Virus record (IMG/VR): IMGVR_UViG_3300025245_000001
Span: 1-42,746 of that record
Origin: a virus
DNA: 42,746 nt
Direction: 5' to 3' (one strand)
Positions 1 through 42,746 of this stretch are shown here, piece after piece (position 1 is the stretch's first letter; every line of letters begins with the position of its first letter). Made by a program: the position numbers and the translations under genes. Below the pieces are notes generated by a model, which was not told the DNA's origin, did no database searches, and was given only the letters and a program-made list of their open reading frames with translations.

Positions 1-343
<343 letters not shown>

Positions 344-26527: not shown

Positions 26528-26588
26528 CCCAATCTTCCTTTAATGCCCTCAGACGCGGCATTTTACACGTAATCCATGGGGAATGCCA

Positions 26589-27959
26589 ATGGCTGATTTC
26601 GATTGGTCGCCATACGCTGTGGGCGGTGCGACAAGGCCAGACGCGCTGTCAGGCATGAACGCGCAGTTCAGGGCGGCTCTTCAGGGGCTCATCTCGACGG
26701 CTCCTAATGGCATCCGCCAGCAATTGCAGGTGTTTTCCGGGTATCGGTCGCCGGCCAAGCAAGCCGAACTCTATAACCGTGCACTGCAGAAATATGGATC
26801 TCCGCAGGCCGCACGCCAATGGGTCGCGCCTCCGAACCGCAGCCAGCACAACAAGGGCATGGCCGCCGACCTGAAATATCTCTCCCCGCAGGCCAAGGCG
26901 TGGGTGAGGGAGAATGCCCCGGCACATGGCCTTTCCTTCCCGCTGAAGAATGAGCCCTGGCATGTCGAACTGGCGACGGCGCGCAATCCTAATGCAGCAA
27001 CGCCGCCGAGGGATATCCCAAATGTCTCTTCGGCACTTGCCTATGACGCCGTGCCGACGCCACGCCCGTCAAGCAACCCGTTCGACGCCATTCTCTCTAC
27101 ATCAACCCCAGCGCCATCACCGATGCTGGCTTCATCCTTCGCGCCGACGCCCGTTCAAAGGGAGGCATTACCCGACGTGACCCCTGTCAGTATGAGATCA
27201 TCCCGCCTTGGATCATCCGCGCCCACATTGGCCGATATGGGCCGTCTTGGCCCTGCACCTGTCGCATCTCCTGCCTCGTCCTATTTCGACTATTCCGGGC
27301 TGCTCTCCGAAGATCCACAGCAGGTAAGCGCGTTCGATGCCGAGCGCCTTGGCCCGACTTCCCCAGTCGCCACGACACCGCAGCAACTTCAGCGCGGCCT
27401 TCTCGACCAGCAGCTTAACGCCGGCATTCTGCCCGACCTCATGGCACCCGCCACCAACTGGCCTGGTCAGGTCGCGCCGACGACTGCCGCGACAGTCGAG
27501 CAACCAGCCATGGGCGACTATGAACCTGCCTCGATCAAGACATCGAGCGTTCAGCCGCCGGCCGTCCAAAGCGGGCTCATGTCGATGCCGGAATATCGGC
27601 AGGTCCAACAGCAACAGGCGCTTATGGGCGGCGCTCTCCCGCAGACGTCTCCAGCTGAATTCCAAGCTTATGCGGATCGGACAAGGCAGCAGATGCAGAA
27701 CCGGTCGCTTGGCGGTGGTCTTCTTGGCGGCCTTCTCGGCGGCCTGACCCTCGGCCCGGTCGGCGCCATTGCCGGTGGCCTGTTGGGCAAGACCGTGGCG
27801 AACAGGAGCTTCTTCCCGGAAGCGCCACCCGCAAACCCGAACAGCAAGCAACAGCAGACGGGATACGCCGGACTGAACGAGTCCGGTCGCCGTTCATATT
27901 CGGAAAGCAAACAGTTCAGGGACGCCGTTGACGGCAAAATGAGCGCAGGGCTCTGGTAA
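26589..27959 (+). CDS. Virion peptidoglycan peptidase (M15/VanY-like) with long disordered tail
   Basis: 456 residues. Residues ~20-130 form an M15 D,D-peptidase: FSGYRSPAKQAELYN (49-63), zinc ligands H87 and D94 (QHNKGMAAD), catalytic E122 and ligand H125 (EPWHVE). The remaining ~300 residues are Pro/Ser/Ala/Gln-rich and probably disordered, with a Gly-zipper near 380-405. It probably opens the cell wall at DNA entry as part of the virion. ATG 26589 has GGGGA six bases upstream; ATG 26583 is an alternative. Confidence 0.85.
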   Translation: MADFDWSPYAVGGATRPDALSGMNAQFRAALQGLISTAPNGIRQQLQVFSGYRSPAKQAELYNRALQKYGSPQAARQWVAPPNRSQHNKGMAADLKYLSPQAKAWVRENAPAHGLSFPLKNEPWHVELATARNPNAATPPRDIPNVSSALAYDAVPTPRPSSNPFDAILSTSTPAPSPMLASSFAPTPVQREALPDVTPVSMRSSRLGSSAPTLADMGRLGPAPVASPASSYFDYSGLLSEDPQQVSAFDAERLGPTSPVATTPQQLQRGLLDQQLNAGILPDLMAPATNWPGQVAPTTAATVEQPAMGDYEPASIKTSSVQPPAVQSGLMSMPEYRQVQQQQALMGGALPQTSPAEFQAYADRTRQQMQNRSLGGGLLGGLLGGLTLGPVGAIAGGLLGKTVANRSFFPEAPPANPNSKQQQTGYAGLNESGRRSYSESKQFRDAVDGKMSAGLW

Positions 27960-29150: not shown

Positions 29151-29975
29151 ATGACGCACCGCAGGCACATCCATCTCATCGGCGACAGCCTTTCGAAAGG
29201 CTATGCTCTCGGGGCATATAGCGAGCAGATCATCGCCAATGGTCCAAGCGACCCGCGGAATGCGATTCTGCTGTTTGCCTCGATATCGTCTATGGCAAAC
29301 AACGTGCTTTACGAGAACGGCATTCGAGACGAATTCAATTACACTGGGATTCCCGCGGTCAATCTCAGTTCCGACATATCGACCACGGTTGCCTCTATCC
29401 GCGCCCTAGTCGCCAACGGAACCATTCGCAGCGGCGATGTTGTCGTGGCAGAAGACGCCGGCCCGCACAACCAAGATCCTGACCTCTACCAAAGCCAATG
29501 GGAGCAGTTCCGCGCCGCCGTGGTTGACCGCTTCGATATCACGTTGGTCATGATGAGCATGTTCAGCTATCCGAATGCCGCGGCTGACAGCCAGTACAGC
29601 ACCCTCTTCGGAACGGCACCCAATCAGCGCACAATGAATGCCGCTACCGTGGCCGCCTATCAGGCGACCATTCCGAACGAGCGAGGCCAGACGCTTTGGA
29701 TCGACATGAAGACAGCAATGGACAACTGGCGGTCATCGGCAAAATCAGTCGACAACGTTGATGTGATGCATCCTGACGACATTCATCCGAATGTCTGGGG
29801 GCAGGCCCTCATGGTGGGGGAACTGCTCAAGGCGCTTCAGTATCGGCCCTATATCAATGACTGCAATGGGCTGAAGAACCTCGCATATACGCAATATGCC
29901 CAACTGAAATACGGCTCGACGACCTTCAACGCGCTGCGTGCTTTCCAGTATATGAGCCAGTGCATTCTTGGATGA
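29151..29975 (+). CDS. SGNH/GDSL hydrolase, virion-type
   Basis: 274 residues without signal peptide. IHLIGDSLSKGYALG holds the block I serine (S13); HPDDIHPNVWG holds D209 and H212 of the D-x-x-H block V; GDVVVAEDAGPHNQD lies between. SGNH enzymes remove acyl groups from sugars; in a tail module this points to deacetylation of host exopolysaccharide or O-antigen during adsorption. GGAGAAACC precedes the ATG. The C-terminal ~45 residues may be an attachment part. Confidence 0.87.
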   Translation: MTHRRHIHLIGDSLSKGYALGAYSEQIIANGPSDPRNAILLFASISSMANNVLYENGIRDEFNYTGIPAVNLSSDISTTVASIRALVANGTIRSGDVVVAEDAGPHNQDPDLYQSQWEQFRAAVVDRFDITLVMMSMFSYPNAAADSQYSTLFGTAPNQRTMNAATVAAYQATIPNERGQTLWIDMKTAMDNWRSSAKSVDNVDVMHPDDIHPNVWGQALMVGELLKALQYRPYINDCNGLKNLAYTQYAQLKYGSTTFNALRAFQYMSQCILG

Positions 29976-30693
29976 TTGCATCCACCATGATTGTCTGTCC
30001 TTTGATGTTCTGATGTATCCCGTCATCATGCAGGACGGTATACCCCGATTTCGTGACCTCGTTTATCATGGTTTTGAGGTCAATAAGCTTGGCACCGAGG
30101 ACATGGGCCGCAAAGGTCGTCGCATCGTTATAGCTCACCCCTCCGAAATCGATGGAATAGCGGTATAGGTCGGCAGGTTCTCCACCGACAACAGGGGATT
30201 TGATATCGTCCGGTATGGTCATCATGATCAGCTTGACATCAACGCCCCTGAGCGCGGCGCCGATCTTCAACCAGTTGTCGAAATATACCATCGGGGCCTT
30301 GTCGTGGCGTCCCGCGTCTTCGAGCACAACCACATCACCATCGCGGATAACGCCGCGCTTGACGAGATCCGAAATCCACTCTGCCCCATCCTCTACCATA
30401 TCAGGCTGTCCGTTCAGGCCGGCGTAGACAGCCATGAAGCCACGGCTGCGCAACTGCGAGGCTGGGGAACGAAGCTCCCAGTCCGGATTGTCCATCTGTT
30501 CTTTCGTCGAGCTGTCCGGGAAGAAGCCGAGGGCATAGCCTCGCATGATGCTGTCACCAAAGGTGAAGATCACGCTTCCGTAACTGTCCCGGGCGACCAT
30601 CATTTTGGCGAGAAGCGGCTCGGACGGCCCAGCCTGGGCGAACGCCTGGCAGGCAAAGAGCAGCGCTGAAAACAAGAGCGGGATGAGTTTCAT
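29926..30693 (-). CDS. Secreted SGNH hydrolase on the opposite strand
   Basis: 255 residues. Sec signal peptide MKLIPLLFSALLFACQAFA cleaved before QAGPSEP (an FAC pair leaves a weak lipoprotein alternative). Catalytic S48 (TFGDSIMRGYALG) and D224-x-x-H227 (DDGIHQNIKG). It is clearly homologous to the plus-strand hydrolase (RGYALG/KGYALG, GDVVVLEDAG/GDVVVAEDAG). Minus strand and signal peptide imply expression in the lysogen and action on its own surface. The 3' ends of the two genes overlap by 50 bp. Start: ATG 30693, or TTG at 30699 with AAGG upstream. Confidence 0.86.
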   Translation of the reverse strand: MKLIPLLFSALLFACQAFAQAGPSEPLLAKMMVARDSYGSVIFTFGDSIMRGYALGFFPDSSTKEQMDNPDWELRSPASQLRSRGFMAVYAGLNGQPDMVEDGAEWISDLVKRGVIRDGDVVVLEDAGRHDKAPMVYFDNWLKIGAALRGVDVKLIMMTIPDDIKSPVVGGEPADLYRYSIDFGGVSYNDATTFAAHVLGAKLIDLKTMINEVTKSGYTVLHDDGIHQNIKGQTIMVDAIIQECTGSYTGKHAAR

Positions 30694-30699
30694 CCCCAA

Positions 30700-30728
30700 T
30701 GCATACCTTAACGCGAATCTTCTGACAA
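30700..30728 (-). promoter_or_regulatory. Promoter of the secreted SGNH hydrolase
   Basis: Minus-strand TTGTCA (30728-30723), 17-bp spacer, TATGCA (30705-30700). Predicted transcription start lies at or beside the ATG at 30693, so the message may be leaderless. It is independent of the late operon, as expected for a lysogenic conversion gene. Confidence 0.5.
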
Positions 30729-30800
30729 TCTGGAGACTTCCATGCTCGTCCACAACTGGCGCGCAGTCTCCTTCCTATTTCACCAATGGAGAGAAACCCC

Positions 30801-31490
30801 ATGCGCAAGATCAGCGCTTATGGCATCCAGAAGCTTAAACAGTGGGAGGGGGAAATCCTCTTCGCCTATGACGACTTCGACCCGCCATCCAATCGCCGCC
30901 GCATCAAGAGCGGCGACAGGATCAAGGGAACATTGACAATCGGGGTAGGGCACACTGGGCCCGACGTGCGCCCCGGCATGACGATCACCTCGCAGCAATC
31001 GACCGATCTTCTCTATCAGGATCTGGCGGCGTTCGAGGCTGTCGTAGAGGCCAGCGTCAAGGTTCCGCTCAACGACAACCAGTTTGCGGCTCTCGTCAGT
31101 TTTGCGTTCAACGTCGGCGCAGCAAACTTCCGATCTTCCACGCTCCTGAAGAAGCTCAATACCGGCAATTATGCCGCTGTCCCGGCTGAGCTTGCCAAAT
31201 GGACGAAATCCAAGGGCAAGACGATGCAGGGGCTTGTCAACCGGCGCGCGGCCGAGGCGGGGCTCTGGGCCGAGGGATCATTCGTTCAGTCTTCCGGCAC
31301 GATCGCCGACAAGCAGCGCGCGCCGCTCATCAACGGCAAGGTGCTCAGCACCGGGACCGCGCTCCTGTCTGGTGGCGGACTGCAGTTCGTTCCGACCAAT
31401 GGACCGATCGCCTACGCGCTCGCGGCCATCCTCGTCATCGCCTGCCTTGTCGGCGGCGGCCTATACGTCTGGGACAGGATGAAGAACTGA
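30801..31490 (+). CDS. Endolysin, GH24 lysozyme with C-terminal membrane segment
   Basis: 229 residues. Residues ~8-150 are a T4-type muramidase: catalytic E16 (LKQWEGEILFAYDD), LTIGVGHTG with the usual Thr region, LVSFAFNVGAANF and LVNRRAAEAGLW. The last ~25 residues (YALAAILVIACLVGGGLYVW) span a membrane, which is unusual for this family; there is no N-terminal signal. ATG 30801 has GGAGAG upstream. Overlaps the spanin gene by one base pair set. Confidence 0.9.
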   Translation: MRKISAYGIQKLKQWEGEILFAYDDFDPPSNRRRIKSGDRIKGTLTIGVGHTGPDVRPGMTITSQQSTDLLYQDLAAFEAVVEASVKVPLNDNQFAALVSFAFNVGAANFRSSTLLKKLNTGNYAAVPAELAKWTKSKGKTMQGLVNRRAAEAGLWAEGSFVQSSGTIADKQRAPLINGKVLSTGTALLSGGGLQFVPTNGPIAYALAAILVIACLVGGGLYVWDRMKN

Positions 31491-31768
31491 TGCTTTCCTT
31501 TATCCCTGACGCCCTCAAGCTGCCCGCAGCAGCGCTTGCCGGGGCTTTAGCCTCCGCATCCATCCTGATCGTCATAAACGCTATCTGGTGGCTTCCTGCG
31601 GCCCGTAGTGAGGGCAGGGACGCAGAACGCACCGCTGCTCTTCAGCGATCGATGGATCTAATTCGAGAACGAGGCAAAACCAATGCTGAGATTGGCAAAC
31701 TCTCTCCTGCCGATATTTGCCGTCGCTTGGGCGGCGTCTGGGTGCCAGGCGACAACCTCTGCGAATGA
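31490..31768 (+). CDS. Inner-membrane spanin (Rz-like)
   Basis: 92 residues. N-terminal membrane segment (LAGALASASILIVINAIWWL), then a charged periplasmic helix (RDAERTAALQRSMDLIRERG). Small size and position behind the endolysin fit an i-spanin, which together with the outer-membrane partner fuses the membranes at lysis. Partner gene starts within it in another frame. Final CRRLGGVWVPGDNLCE may form a disulphide. Confidence 0.82.
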   Translation: MLSFIPDALKLPAAALAGALASASILIVINAIWWLPAARSEGRDAERTAALQRSMDLIRERGKTNAEIGKLSPADICRRLGGVWVPGDNLCE

Positions 31769-31901
31769 CGGTGCCGGATTCGAGCGTCTAAGCCCGTCTG
31801 CCGTCACCCGGAAATTCATCATCGCCAACGATATCCCCTTCGCCAAGCAGGTCGTCGCGCATAATCAGACGTGCGACAAACTGCCGGCCTGCCGAAAGTA
31901 G
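31683..31901 (+). CDS. Outer-membrane spanin lipoprotein (Rz1-like), overlapping gene
   Basis: 72 residues, ATG 31683. MLRLANSLLPIFAVAWAASG ends in the lipobox A-S-G-C (cysteine 21), giving an outer-membrane lipoprotein. 86 bases overlap the Rz-like gene in another frame, the lambda-type Rz/Rz1 nesting. The mature part is short (~50 residues). Confidence 0.82.
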   Translation: MLRLANSLLPIFAVAWAASGCQATTSANDGAGFERLSPSAVTRKFIIANDIPFAKQVVAHNQTCDKLPACRK

Positions 31902-31907
31902 ACGCCC

Positions 31908-34427
31908 ATGACCATGCTTGGACTGAACCTGGCCCTTACAGGCGTGAGAAGCGGAGGAGGGGGCACATCGCTCCCGGATTTCCAGTTCCAGACGGAAACC
32001 GATACGCTCAACACGTCGAAGACGGCGGCCGGCATTCCGATGACCAGACGGCAGAAGCTTGCCTTTGACCGGCTCATCGTCCGCATCAAGGGCGCTGGTG
32101 TAAGCATGGCCGATGCCCTGGCCATGTATTCGCCAGACACGCCGACCGAAATCAACAGCCGCGTCAACAAGTTTCATCCCGGCACGAACGATCTGACCCT
32201 GACTGGTGCGGGTGTCCCGACCTATACGGCAAACGACCGCTGGGGAAGCTGGCTGTCAACAGCCAAATATAACACCGGCATCGGACTGCAGACCTTCGCC
32301 CAAGGCCAGTTCACGATCTTCTACTATTCCCGGTCCAGCAACGCCGCCAGCAGCGGTGACTTCGGCGCGCAGACGGCCGGCGCAGATGGCATCGGGGGTA
32401 ATATCCGGGACGCCTCCAACAAGATCAATGCGCGTCTTCAGGCTGCGAACTACGTTTCCACTTCGGCGACCATCAGCCCGGGCCAGGGCATGTATAGCTT
32501 CCGTTCGAACAGCATCGACACATTCGGGATCACGCGCGAAGCTCCGTCCACAACCTATGTCGCGCCTGCCACCAATCCGACCATCCATCTCGGCGGCATC
32601 AACGGCGGCGCGCTGTCCGTGCACGATTGCGGGCTCTTCGCCATCTTCAAGGTGCGGCTGACCGATGCCCAGTGCATGGAGATCAGTGCTGCCCTGCTGG
32701 ATTATTACTACAAGATCCGCTTCGGCATGGTCGACTACTACGACGCTGGCAAAGCCCCAACGACGGCCGATTATGACGTTGTTGTCTATGGCGCAAGCTG
32801 GACAGGGGTTTCTGCCGCCTACGCCGCCAAGCAGGAAGGCAAGACCGTCTGCATGGTGCTCGACGACCTCGCCAAAACCGATTGGGATATCGGCGGCATG
32901 CCGGCATCCGGTCTGGCCTATGTCGACTGCTATAACTTCACGGCGCTGAAGGGACTCTATCGAGACCTCACATCCTGGGCCAATAGCACGATCATCAACC
33001 GGGCGGACACCAACACGCAAACGGGTAACTCGATCGAAAGCTGGCAGTTCGTCCAGGGCGTTCGGCGCATGCTCGACCCAGCACGGACGAACGGAACGCT
33101 CATTCTCGGGCAGGATATCCCGGTCTACTTCTCCACCGGTATCCAATCCATCACATCGGTCGGCCTGAAGGACACGGCGCTGAAGACCAACGACGGGCGG
33201 ACATTCACGGCTCGGCAGTTCATCGCCGCGGACTATGATGGCGAATATATCCACAAGTCGGCCGGCATCCCGACCTTTACGGGCAGCGAGGCTGCAGGCG
33301 CAGGTTCCGAAGCCAACAACGGCTACAAGGGATCCGGCTCGATGAGCAAGCCCTATGGCTCGGATATCAGCCCCTACATCACGGATGGCGTCCAGGCGTC
33401 CGGTCTTCTGCCGGATATCCAGGGCGAAATGCCTCTGCCCGGCTTGACCGTTGATGGCGTCGATCCGTCGATCGAGAGTATGAACTATCGCCTTGCGATG
33501 ACGACCGACGTGGCCCGCATGGTTCCAGTGACGACCATGGACCCGCATCGGAATTACAATTCGCTTCGCTACGAGACCGCGGCTCGCGCCTATGTCCTTA
33601 ACCCCGGCGTTACGATCGGCAATCCGGCGGTCACCACCACCATCCTGCAGTTCGCGGTTGGTGGCTCGACAAACAAGATGGACGTGAACAACGGTTCTGG
33701 CGGCCTCTCCACCGACTTGCCGGGCAGCGGCTATCGGTACGCCACAGCGGCAAACCGTGCGGCGCAGTTGGCCGTGATCGATGACCTTCGGGACTACCAG
33801 CTTGGTTGGTTCTGGTGGCACGCCAACTCCGGGGACGGCCGCATCCCCGGAACTCTTGTGACACAGTTCCAAGCGCTCGGGCTCGACGCAGGCACGTTCC
33901 TCGATCCCGGTCCCGGCGGCTTGCTGTTCTGGCCGAACCGCCCGTATCAGCGCGATCCGATCTGGCGCCTGAAAAACACCGGCTACGTCTCGACGGCGCA
34001 GGATTATTGCAAGGTCGATGGCTCGGCTCTCAGATCCGACAAGACGATTGCCGTGACGAGCTATGACTGCGACAAGCATCCCCCGTGGAAGGTGGCCTCT
34101 GGTGGCCTCCTATACACGCAGGGCAGCGTTCCCGGCTCGCTGGTGGCCGGCGCCGACAAGATGGCCCCTGTACCGCTTGAGGAGATCGTTCCCGATGTTG
34201 GGGTAAAGACGAACGTCGTCGTGCCGTGGGGATCTTCCTGCACGATCCTTTGCTGGTATATGGGTAGGCTGGAGCCGACAGGCGGCCTCAAGGGCGAGGC
34301 GGCCGGCGTTATCGCTTCCATGGCGATCGACGCGACAGCGAACGTGCAGGACGTTGACTATTCGACACTGCGCACGAAGCTGTTGGCTCGGGACGTGAAC
34401 CATCCGGTTCTTCCCCAAGTAGCATAA
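31908..34427 (+). CDS. LamG-like/FAD-dependent oxidoreductase fusion, tail candidate
   Basis: 839 residues. Residues ~60-275 (LTLTGAGVPTYTANDRWGSW, HLGGINGGALSVHDCGLFAI) resemble LamG/concanavalin-type domains of phage tail proteins. From ~288 the protein changes: YDVVVYGASWTGVSAAYAAK is a Rossmann nucleotide site (G295-A-S-W-T-G300), followed by DIGGMPASGLAYVDC, FIAADYDGEYIHKSAG, NYRLAMTTDVARMVP, STDLPGSGYRY and DYQLGWFWWHANSGDGR, in the order of the FAD_oxidored family (Pfam PF12831). The second Gly of GxGxxG is Ser. It is the last gene of the late operon, behind lysis, where P22-like phages often keep host-recognition proteins. Proposed: virion-borne flavoenzyme acting on surface sugars; a structural, inactive use is also possible. 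Confidence 0.85.
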   Translation: MTMLGLNLALTGVRSGGGGTSLPDFQFQTETDTLNTSKTAAGIPMTRRQKLAFDRLIVRIKGAGVSMADALAMYSPDTPTEINSRVNKFHPGTNDLTLTGAGVPTYTANDRWGSWLSTAKYNTGIGLQTFAQGQFTIFYYSRSSNAASSGDFGAQTAGADGIGGNIRDASNKINARLQAANYVSTSATISPGQGMYSFRSNSIDTFGITREAPSTTYVAPATNPTIHLGGINGGALSVHDCGLFAIFKVRLTDAQCMEISAALLDYYYKIRFGMVDYYDAGKAPTTADYDVVVYGASWTGVSAAYAAKQEGKTVCMVLDDLAKTDWDIGGMPASGLAYVDCYNFTALKGLYRDLTSWANSTIINRADTNTQTGNSIESWQFVQGVRRMLDPARTNGTLILGQDIPVYFSTGIQSITSVGLKDTALKTNDGRTFTARQFIAADYDGEYIHKSAGIPTFTGSEAAGAGSEANNGYKGSGSMSKPYGSDISPYITDGVQASGLLPDIQGEMPLPGLTVDGVDPSIESMNYRLAMTTDVARMVPVTTMDPHRNYNSLRYETAARAYVLNPGVTIGNPAVTTTILQFAVGGSTNKMDVNNGSGGLSTDLPGSGYRYATAANRAAQLAVIDDLRDYQLGWFWWHANSGDGRIPGTLVTQFQALGLDAGTFLDPGPGGLLFWPNRPYQRDPIWRLKNTGYVSTAQDYCKVDGSALRSDKTIAVTSYDCDKHPPWKVASGGLLYTQGSVPGSLVAGADKMAPVPLEEIVPDVGVKTNVVVPWGSSCTILCWYMGRLEPTGGLKGEAAGVIASMAIDATANVQDVDYSTLRTKLLARDVNHPVLPQVA

Positions 34428-34433
34428 GCAATC

Positions 34434-34468
34434 GGTTTTCCGACCTGCAGCGAACAGATCGGAAAACC
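34434..34468 (+). terminator. Late-operon terminator hairpin
   Basis: GGTTTTCCGA (34434-34443) and TCGGAAAACC (34459-34468) form a perfect 10-bp stem with 15-nt loop just behind the last late gene. No long U-run follows, so strength is uncertain. The interval 34469-34566 holds nothing else recognised. Confidence 0.7.
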
Positions 34469-34566
34469 TAACCACCAAGATTAGCTGGAATCTCGATGGC
34501 TGGGCATAAGTTACCAGTGTCTGATTTCGAAAACCTAAATGCAGACACAGCGGGCTTAGGGACTTG

Positions 34567-34995
34567 ATGACATCCAACGACGATATCCTGCGCGCCCTTG
34601 GCCGGGTCGAAGGCAGACTCACAGGCATTGAAGAAAGCGTTTCCCTGTTGAGGGAGGACGTGAGCGACGAAAAGGACAATGCCCACGAAAGCCGGTCTGT
34701 CATTCATCGCCGGCTCGATGAACAGATGCGACAGATCAATCTGCTGGATAAGGTCGTCGAGATCAGCAGCGGCGTTGATGCTACTCTTCGGGAGGAGATA
34801 AAAAACCTCCGGGATACCGTAGACAAGAACCACGCTGCCACACAGCCGGCCCTAGAGGAGTGGAGACGCATGAAGTCTATCGGCTACGGTATCTCAGGTC
34901 TGATCGCGTTTGCTGGCCTTACAGTCGGCGCTATTGTCACTTGGGCGAGCGATGGGGCAGTTTCGGCTCTCAGGCATTGGTTGAAGATTAATTAA
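34567..34995 (+). CDS. DUF1515-like protein, membrane-anchored coiled coil (holin candidate)
   Basis: 142 residues. N-terminal coiled coil (ILRALGRVEGRLTGIEESVS, then QINLLDKVVEISSGV), C-terminal membrane span (YGISGLIAFAGLTVGAIVTW). It fits the family I know as DUF1515 in rhizobial prophages. A holin role is possible, since none is otherwise seen with the endolysin, but the place outside the lysis cassette argues for caution. ATG 34567 with AGGGA upstream. Confidence 0.75.
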   Translation: MTSNDDILRALGRVEGRLTGIEESVSLLREDVSDEKDNAHESRSVIHRRLDEQMRQINLLDKVVEISSGVDATLREEIKNLRDTVDKNHAATQPALEEWRRMKSIGYGISGLIAFAGLTVGAIVTWASDGAVSALRHWLKIN

Positions 34996-35980: not shown

Positions 35981-36206
35981 CATTTTACAATATACTCTTG
36001 ACGTTCCTAGATTCATTGAGTGAATTCCGGCTGCATTTTACAGCCCAGTTCCATCTACCCAATTGAAATCCATGCTTATGCCATCGGATTTGTAATCAGG
36101 GGGTCCCGGGTTCGAACCCTGGCGGGGGCACCATAACCACTTGATATTTATACACTATTTTCATCGCCAGCACCACCCATTTTACAGCATTTCGCGTATT
36201 TTACAG
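35981..36206. other. attP: tRNA-Thr(UGU) core with four arm-type sites
   Basis: Core 36086-36133 copies the 3' part of a tRNA-Thr: anticodon loop TTTGTAA, T-arm GGTTCGAACCC, and acceptor end GGGGGCACCA. The 5' half of the tRNA is absent, so it is an attachment site and no gene. Flanking direct repeats (C/T)ATTTTACA(A/G) lie at 35981-35990, 36034-36043, 36178-36187 and 36197-36206, two per side, all in one orientation: probable integrase arm sites. Insertion would restore the host tRNA 3' end. The 288 bases between genes here hold nothing else coding. Confidence 0.88.
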
Positions 36207-36213
36207 ATTATGC

Positions 36214-37245
36214 TCATTTCGTTCCGCGGCTGATGGCGTCGATAATCTCCTGGCCTGCCAGGTAGTGACGCCGAATAATCCCCTCCGCATCCTCCCGAGA
36301 ATGACCCGAGATCTCGGCGATAAGCTGGATCTTCTCCTCATGCGATCTATCGAGGTTCGCATAGGCATAGGTGATCGCCGTTCCGCGCAGATCGTGGAAG
36401 GTCACGCCTTTGATGCCGAGGCGCGTCATCTCTTTCCCCCATGATGATTTGAAGCCGCTCGATGTCCAGTTTTGGCCGAATGAGTTGACCAGCACGCGCT
36501 GGCGCTGATGGGTCTTGGCCTCCTGCAGTATCGGCAAGATGGCCGGCGCTGCGGTGATGCGAACCCGCGCGCCCGTCTTCCCCTGCTTGATCGATACCCG
36601 CTCGCCATCGAAAGCGATCATCGGCATCGTCAACAGGTCGGCCTGCCTCTGCATCGTCCATAGCGCCACACAGGCCACGTTTCGAAGATGCGGAGCGGCC
36701 TTGGTGAGAACGGTGTTGATCTGATCCATCGTCCATACGGAGTCCCGCCTGCTGCCCTCGTGAAGGCGCTCGACGCGCTCCAGCGGATTGCGGAGAATGG
36801 TTTCGTTGTCCTTCGCCCACGCGAAGAGCCTTGCCAGCAGCCCCAGGTGCATATCAGCAGAGCGGGGCGCGTCCTTCATGGTGTCTCGCCACTCAAGGAA
36901 CAGTTTTCGGCTTCCACGAGCCTCTATGGCCGAAATCGGGAAGGACTCGTATTCAGCCCGGATAGCTCCGAACATGCGTTCATAGTCCTTGCGGGTATTG
37001 GCTCCTAGAGCCTTATATTTCGCGGTGGAACGGAATTCCTCGATAAGAGAGCCGATCGTTCCGGATGCGACGTGCACCGGCCGATCTCTGGTGAGGCGAA
37101 CGAATTCCTGCGTAAAGGCTTTCGTCCCCGGCTTGGCGTGGATCCTCGGTGCGCCTTTTCCCCGCCATGCATAGTAGTAGATCGTTTCCGACCCATCGGC
37201 CAGCTTGACCTTGATCCTATGCACGCCCACCAGCTTGCCTTCCAT
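36214..37245 (-). CDS. int: Tyrosine recombinase integrase
   Basis: 343 residues. Catalytic residues visible: R200 (WTMQRQADLL), K223 (KQGKTGARV), H284 and R287 (FHDLRGTA), H315 (SGHSREDAE) and Y328 (RRHYLAG). The N-terminal ~160 residues hold the arm-binding and core-binding domains. It lies 8 bp from the outer arm site of attP and catalyses integration into tRNA-Thr. GAGGA precedes the ATG. Last third of the leftward operon, as lambda int. Confidence 0.96.
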   Translation of the reverse strand: MEGKLVGVHRIKVKLADGSETIYYYAWRGKGAPRIHAKPGTKAFTQEFVRLTRDRPVHVASGTIGSLIEEFRSTAKYKALGANTRKDYERMFGAIRAEYESFPISAIEARGSRKLFLEWRDTMKDAPRSADMHLGLLARLFAWAKDNETILRNPLERVERLHEGSRRDSVWTMDQINTVLTKAAPHLRNVACVALWTMQRQADLLTMPMIAFDGERVSIKQGKTGARVRITAAPAILPILQEAKTHQRQRVLVNSFGQNWTSSGFKSSWGKEMTRLGIKGVTFHDLRGTAITYAYANLDRSHEEKIQLIAEISGHSREDAEGIIRRHYLAGQEIIDAISRGTK

Positions 37246-42523: not shown

Positions 42524-42746
42524 TCAGTCGTCTTCGTTTTCAGAACCGCCGTTGCCGTCGCCGTTGCCGTAGCCGTAGCCGTTGCCGTTGCCGTTGCCGT
42601 TGCCGTCGCCGTTGCCGTAGCCGTTGCCGTTGCCGTTGCCGTAGCCGTCGCCGTTGCCGTTGCCGTAGCCGTTGCCGTTGCCGTTGCCGTAGCCGTTGCC
42701 GTCGCCGTTGCCGTAGCCGTAGCCGTTGCCGTTGCCGTTGCCGTTG
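42524..42746 (-). CDS. Gly-Asn/Asp/Tyr repeat protein, C-terminal part
   Basis: Continuation of the gene that starts at 344 and leaves the window at base 1. Thirty-two more dipeptide units, then GGSENEDD and TGA at 42526-42524. The combined protein is about 190 residues with roughly 120 of low complexity. The acidic end recalls acidic tips of single-strand binding proteins only loosely. Confidence 0.85.
   Translation of the reverse strand, partial: NGNGNGNGYGYGNGDGNGYGNGNGNGYGNGNGDGYGNGNGNGYGNGDGNGNGNGNGYGYGNGDGNGGSENEDD
42551..42746. repeat. Hexanucleotide tandem array, second part
   Basis: Thirty-two units of GTTGCC, GTAGCC or GTCGCC plus four bases, same phase as the array at 1-162. TTG-type units (Asn on the minus strand) are the most frequent in both halves. 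No unit departs from the scheme. Confidence 0.95.

Follow-up and report, generated by a model that had tools for sequence, protein, structure and literature searches.

A flavoenzyme-derived domain fused to a predicted lectin-like fold in a probable receptor-binding or host-surface-processing protein of rhizobial phages

The stretch of DNA analyzed here (the window), a virus record of 42.7 kb, comes from a phage of root-nodule bacteria. Its plus strand carries genes for a terminase, a portal protein (phrog_156), a major head protein, an ejection protein, and a VanY-domain protein, followed by a phage lysozyme gene (30786 to 31490, plus strand). From there, the gene order (5′ to 3′) is lysozyme, an overlapping spanin-like pair, the FAD fusion gene studied here, and a conserved 143-amino-acid open reading frame (ORF). 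Integrase and ERF recombinase genes lie on the strand opposite to the FAD gene. An initial annotation had described the fusion as the last late gene; it does read in the late direction, but the 143-amino-acid ORF (34564 to 34995) follows it on the same strand, and this ORF forms the downstream border of the slot and the anchor for the slot comparison described below.

The spanin-like pair (31490 to 31901, plus strand) consists of a membrane-anchored ORF (31490 to 31768) and a 72-amino-acid ORF (31683 to 31901) that starts within the end of the first and carries a lipobox-like ASGC motif. The VanY peptidase domain forms the N terminus of a late-region protein (26583 to 27959, plus strand), which is perhaps an ejected peptidoglycan-cutting protein. 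Two SGNH/GDSL-like hydrolase genes on opposite strands (29151 to 29975, plus; 29926 to 30753, minus) overlap at their 3′ ends; the minus-strand product, with a leader-like N terminus and weak Pfam GDSL matches below the cutoff, is possibly a lysogenic-conversion esterase. The 3′ part of a tRNA gene (36085 to 36133), with an anticodon-loop-like TTTGTAA, a T loop, and CCA, lies beside the integrase gene (36214 to 37245) and is a probable attachment site. Both ends of the window (1 to 163 and 42548 to 42746) fall in a (GCCGTT)n hexanucleotide array and have 69 identical bases in common, an apparent terminal repeat that may be an assembly product of the array.

The fusion gene is a real and exactly delimited 839-amino-acid ORF running from the ATG at 31908 to the stop at 34427 on the plus strand, and it encodes three segments. 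A short, Gly-rich leader, MTMLGLNLALTGVRSGGGGTS (residues 1 to 21; 31908 to 31970), is disordered in the structural model and is a probable attachment peptide. Structure prediction places a concanavalin-A/LamG-like jelly roll at residues 64 to 270 (32097 to 32717), and Pfam, the model, and the alignment together place a FAD_oxidored-derived domain at residues 286 to 830 (32763 to 34397). The match to PF12831 (FAD_oxidored) covers residues 290 to 825 and profile positions 1 to 416 of 416, with an E value of 2.4e-26 and 93.4 bits against a cutoff of 27, far above chance. The FAD-dependent oxidoreductase-type domain claimed by the initial annotation is thus borne out, and every motif quoted for the ORF was found; of the Rossmann site that was also claimed, the glycine loop is present, but it reads G-x-S-x-x-G rather than GxGxxG. 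A PHROGs scan of the 839-amino-acid protein gave no match, phmmer against the PDB returned weak Rossmann matches only, and a PDB profile search covered mainly the N-terminal Rossmann part of flavoproteins. Antisense to the gene lies a 607-codon open frame (32256 to 34079, minus strand), probably a shadow of the GC-rich codon use of the FAD gene.

An AlphaFold2 model built from 62 aligned sequences had a pTM of 0.88, with pLDDT values of mostly 85 to 98 in the C-terminal domain. Residues 282 to 828 align with solved flavoproteins, including MnmG, thioredoxin reductase, and urocanate reductase, at Z scores of ~15 to 17, as expected for the two-dinucleotide-type flavoprotein fold of FAD_oxidored proteins; a structure check of the FAD domain proposed with the initial annotation therefore came out in its favor (Z of ~16). 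The N-terminal 285 residues were modeled separately (pLDDT of 75; pTM of 0.78), and residues ~51 to 272 align with concanavalin-A-like lectin and carbohydrate-binding domains in the PDB at Z scores of 10 to 11.6, a match of fold only. Comparison of the full model with BFVD recovered phage LamG/ConA-like proteins. These matches agree with the LamG-like N terminus that had been proposed, and the predicted fold is of the carbohydrate-binding type expected of a receptor-binding protein.

The same fusion is present at full length in 20 phage proteins, of which 17 are temperate or metagenomic (window included) and 3 come from isolated Rhizobium phages. Carriers were drawn from 14 IMG/VR loci, Rhizobium sp. 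J15, the 3 isolated phages, and three further virus records (L123, L157, and L169); 2 truncated carriers were excluded, and two pairs (L003/L028 and L006/L011) are identical in sequence. Among 395 sampled Rhizobiaceae genomes, only J15 carries the fusion, and 14 others gave matches to the FAD domain only. The proteins of the isolated lytic phages RHph_I72, RHph_Y55, and RHph_N3_19 have the same two-domain fusion (residues 21 to 838) at 27 to 30% identity and are nearer to bacterial enzymes than the window protein is. The RHph_I72 and RHph_Y55 genes already bear the GenBank label "FAD dependent oxidoreductase," and the RHph_N3_19 gene (EVB99_110) is labeled hypothetical protein.

Bacterial FAD_oxidored proteins of the exported subfamily, including three chromosomal rhizobial ones (L200, L202, and L204), match over the full length of the domain and have the same fold but differ in carrying export leaders and no jelly roll, and several of their invariant residues are lost in the clade to which the window protein belongs (the window clade). 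By a motif scan rather than a trained predictor, most bacterial relatives have a hydrophobic export-type segment at the start, and twin-arginine-like motifs occur in about one-quarter, including the three nearest; no such signal is present on the phage protein. One chromosomal gene for a secreted-type FAD_oxidored protein (L252, 9829 to 11556) lies directly after phage tail-like genes in a Rhizobiaceae genome and also adjoins an apparent DNA methyltransferase gene.

The flavin site was compared across an alignment of the 20 phage proteins, 86 bacterial sequences (including 20 for which no peptide pattern was used in retrieval), and 10 distant PF12831 members. A first list of invariant residues was set aside as biased because the bacterial relatives had been fetched with peptide patterns around residues 404 to 412 and 674 to 684; the count was redone with pattern-free relatives from whole Rhizobiaceae genomes and with both stretches excluded. 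All 20 phage proteins keep G295, G330, G335, L336, D340, G349, G459, E461, G472, R528, R560, D592, N594, Y680, R682, D722, H724, P762, N769, R787, and E789. Segment GGMPASGLAYVD (residues 329 to 340; 32892 to 32927) is conserved from the bacterial enzymes, and the D-x-H pair at residues 722 to 724 (34071 to 34079) is kept by every phage member. Lost in 13/13 window-clade proteins are D440, R460, P547, H780, and M793, with E444 changed to D and D446 to E. Thus, in the window the segment AADYDGEYI...GSE (residues 439 to 461; 33222 to 33290) has Ala for bacterial D440 and Ser for R460, and the last flavin-site segment (residues 769 to 806; 34212 to 34325) keeps N769, R787, and E789 but has Ile for H780 and Gly for M793. 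D440, the Asp of a D-A-x-x motif, is present in 86/86 near relatives and 10/10 distant members; it is Ala, Gly, or Ser throughout the window clade, and the 7 phage proteins outside the clade keep Asp. Overall, window-clade proteins keep 27/39 near-invariant residues (23 to 24 in L023 and L025), the other phage proteins keep 32 to 35, and bacterial relatives keep at least 85%, typically all.

The dinucleotide loop, DVVVYGASWTGVSAA (residues 290 to 304; 32775 to 32819), reads G-A-S-W-T-G in the window, the same pattern as the bacterial G-x-T-x-x-G. G295 is kept; position 300 is Gly in the window and Ala or Ser in its fellow clade members, and the last Gly of the loop is replaced in most phage relatives. 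Three window-clade proteins (L006, L009, and L011) have YGAGPASIATARGLK instead of YGASWTAVCAAYAAK at the start of the FAD domain, which resembles a local replacement. An acidic residue is expected at the end of β-2, where it contacts the adenosine ribose. In the window this position (318) is Leu, with an Asp shifted to 319, and the acid is missing from all of the phage proteins. Its loss was considered as a phage-specific change and rejected: the three nearest chromosomal rhizobial relatives also lack it, so the loss is a trait of the subfamily and is not decisive.

A quick tree groups the phage proteins with these three chromosomal proteins in one clade (SH-aLRT of 98). Together, homology, fold, and phylogeny show that the C-terminal domain has its origin in exported FAD_oxidored enzymes of bacteria. 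In the same tree, the stem of the window clade carries 2.5 changes per column and is followed by slow change; this long branch makes the exact placement of the clade unsure. Among the members of this clade, dN/dS comes to ~0.1 for each of the two domains and to 0.4 for the leader, values that are rough because synonymous sites are near saturation. Such strong constraint indicates that the FAD-derived domain has some function, and a burst of change followed by constraint argues for changed function rather than decay.

What that function is can be read in two ways. Window-clade proteins may have kept a flavoenzyme scaffold that no longer performs redox chemistry and instead binds a surface glycan or another ligand, a reading that we rate as possible, at somewhat below an even chance. 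Consistent with it are the residues, invariant elsewhere, that all 13 members have lost, the burst on the stem, and the purifying selection that followed. On the other hand, many putative active-site residues are still invariant, most members retain the GG motif as well as the dinucleotide loop, and a new substrate could have given the same pattern; both a new substrate and lost redox chemistry fit it. Alternatively, the C-terminal domain may bind FAD and oxidize or dehydrogenate a host surface sugar, as a redox counterpart to the esterases and depolymerases of phage tails. This active form is doubtful for the window copy. The kept residues G295, the GG at 330, D340, R528, D592, N594, Y680, R682, D722, H724, N769, R787, and E789 and the export of the bacterial relatives speak for it; the five clade-wide losses, with only 27/39 residues kept, speak against it, as does the missing β-2 acid, although the chromosomal relatives lack that acid too. 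Judged by sequence, activity is more likely in the isolated-phage branch: the RHph_N3_19 protein keeps 35/39 residues and scores 203 bits to PF12831, and the RHph_N3_19/L027 branch appears to be the better candidate. Because so many otherwise invariant residues are lost, a reused fold is slightly favored for the window clade; in the isolated Rhizobium phages, most of these residues are still present.

The downstream 143-amino-acid gene was used as bait to fetch 76 rhizobial prophage loci, 60 of which were mapped. Directly upstream of it, 46/60 loci encode a protein of at least 350 amino acids, with at least 3 types of payload: 37 of the 46 fall into a single cluster, with matches of the tested members to phrog_8480 ("lysophospholipase L1-like esterase"), 3 are jelly-roll/FAD fusions, 2 are β-helix proteins, and 4 are others, mostly GDSL/SGNH-like. 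Two slot proteins (L177 and L138) are GDSL by Pfam, one (L189) has a partial phrog_8480 match, and one (L153, P0002) is SGNH-like by motif, with no database match. Esterase-family, GDSL, and β-helix slot proteins have the same type of leader as the fusion. The leader motif M-M-L-G-L-S-L-x-L-T-N...GGGG was found in 43/47 slot proteins (window included) and in 1/527 control ORFs of the same loci, a ratio that is descriptive because the motif was written after the sequences had been seen. The leader is nearly identical in L169 (FAD), L139 (esterase), L177, and L189. An independent swap is seen in the isolated phages, where the RHph_N3_19 FAD fusion and an RHph_N3_13 BNR_4 protein occupy one position, flanked by a small gene and the portal gene, and are 64% identical over the first 36 amino acids. 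Thus, the FAD-derived domain sits where related phages place esterase-family, GDSL, β-helix, or BNR domains. Just 3′ of the FAD stop codon in the window is a hairpin (34434 to 34468; 14-nucleotide arms, 93% complementary) without a T run; the idea that it marks a border for recombination in the slot was rejected, since it is absent at that place in all other slot loci.

Payload swapping behind a conserved N-terminal leader is a pattern typical of receptor-binding proteins, which makes a role at the virion surface the best reading and supports the virion location proposed in the initial annotation; the proposed "tail" placement likewise draws on gene swapping. We conclude that the protein is probably a phage receptor-binding or host-surface-processing protein. 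The short leader would fix it to the virion, the predicted jelly roll would bind a host-surface glycan, the C-terminal domain would modify or bind such a glycan, and the fusion would thereby engage rhizobial surface polysaccharide at adsorption. The full PF12831 profile, the flavoprotein fold, the ConA-like N terminus, the conservation of the fusion in 20 phage proteins, the exchange of payloads in both settings, the absence of the export signal found on its bacterial relatives, and the dN/dS of ~0.1 are all consistent with this reading. The narrower proposal, that the protein is a lectin-guided virion flavin oxidoreductase that oxidizes host surface polysaccharide at adsorption and represents a class of redox receptor-binding enzymes, is tentative.

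The temperate-phage gene comes after the lysis genes, at a site that also accepts cargo genes, which counts against a receptor-binding role. A late-expressed intracellular or lysogenic-conversion enzyme outside the virion, for which this position after the lysozyme and spanin-like genes and the prophage tail genes next to L252 can be cited, is nevertheless unlikely given the lectin-type N terminus, the payloads swapped behind one leader with β-helix and esterase-family proteins, the BNR swap, and the lytic-phage location next to the portal gene. In RHph_N3_19, RHph_I72, and RHph_Y55 the gene lies between the portal and major capsid genes, in a head/packaging cluster, so the protein could sit on the head; a capsid-bound adhesin in place of a tail protein is improbable, however, since the temperate-phage gene stands at the end of the late region and the swapped payloads are polysaccharide-active types.

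Polysaccharide-active domains in phage receptor-binding proteins are, to our knowledge, hydrolases, lyases, or esterases. Present in at least two quite distinct groups of rhizobial phages, a domain of flavoenzyme origin in a receptor-binding slot would bring to phage entry a new chemistry or a new scaffold for binding, and it would offer a starting point for assigning functions in a large, unassigned branch of exported FAD_oxidored proteins. Our searches on FAD oxidoreductases in Rhizobium phages, on FAD_oxidored/PF12831, and on flavoprotein tail proteins, with thin coverage of subscription journals, found no description of such a protein. The earlier statement that no phage tail flavoenzyme is described agrees with these literature searches but not with databases, where the two GenBank labels stand; given these labels and the known domain family, neither the fold nor the family is new. 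The fusion suggests an undescribed, possibly redox-based, phage handling of the host surface.

Among known proteins, phage LamG/ConA-like proteins such as "YapH" of Sinorhizobium phage phiN3 and that of Rhizobium phage RHEph08 have an N-terminal jelly roll like that of the window protein but no flavoenzyme domain. The SGNH-domain tail proteins of Klebsiella prophages are experimentally supported receptor-binding enzymes (PMC13123978), and E. coli phage G7C gp63.1 is cited in that paper as an SGNH/GDSL esterase receptor-binding protein. As here, an enzyme-type domain occupies a swappable slot, and esterase-family proteins fill the very slot of the FAD fusion in other rhizobial prophages; their chemistry is hydrolytic, however, and their fold is unrelated. 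The nearest published parallel for a flavoprotein as a virion protein is the GMC-oxidoreductase of mimivirus (PMC9512402), a likeness in use. The mimivirus enzymes, which are found in the genomic fiber and in surface fibrils, belong to another flavoprotein family and to a virus of amoebae, with FAD seen in the map and a structural role (PMC9512402, PMC11042495).
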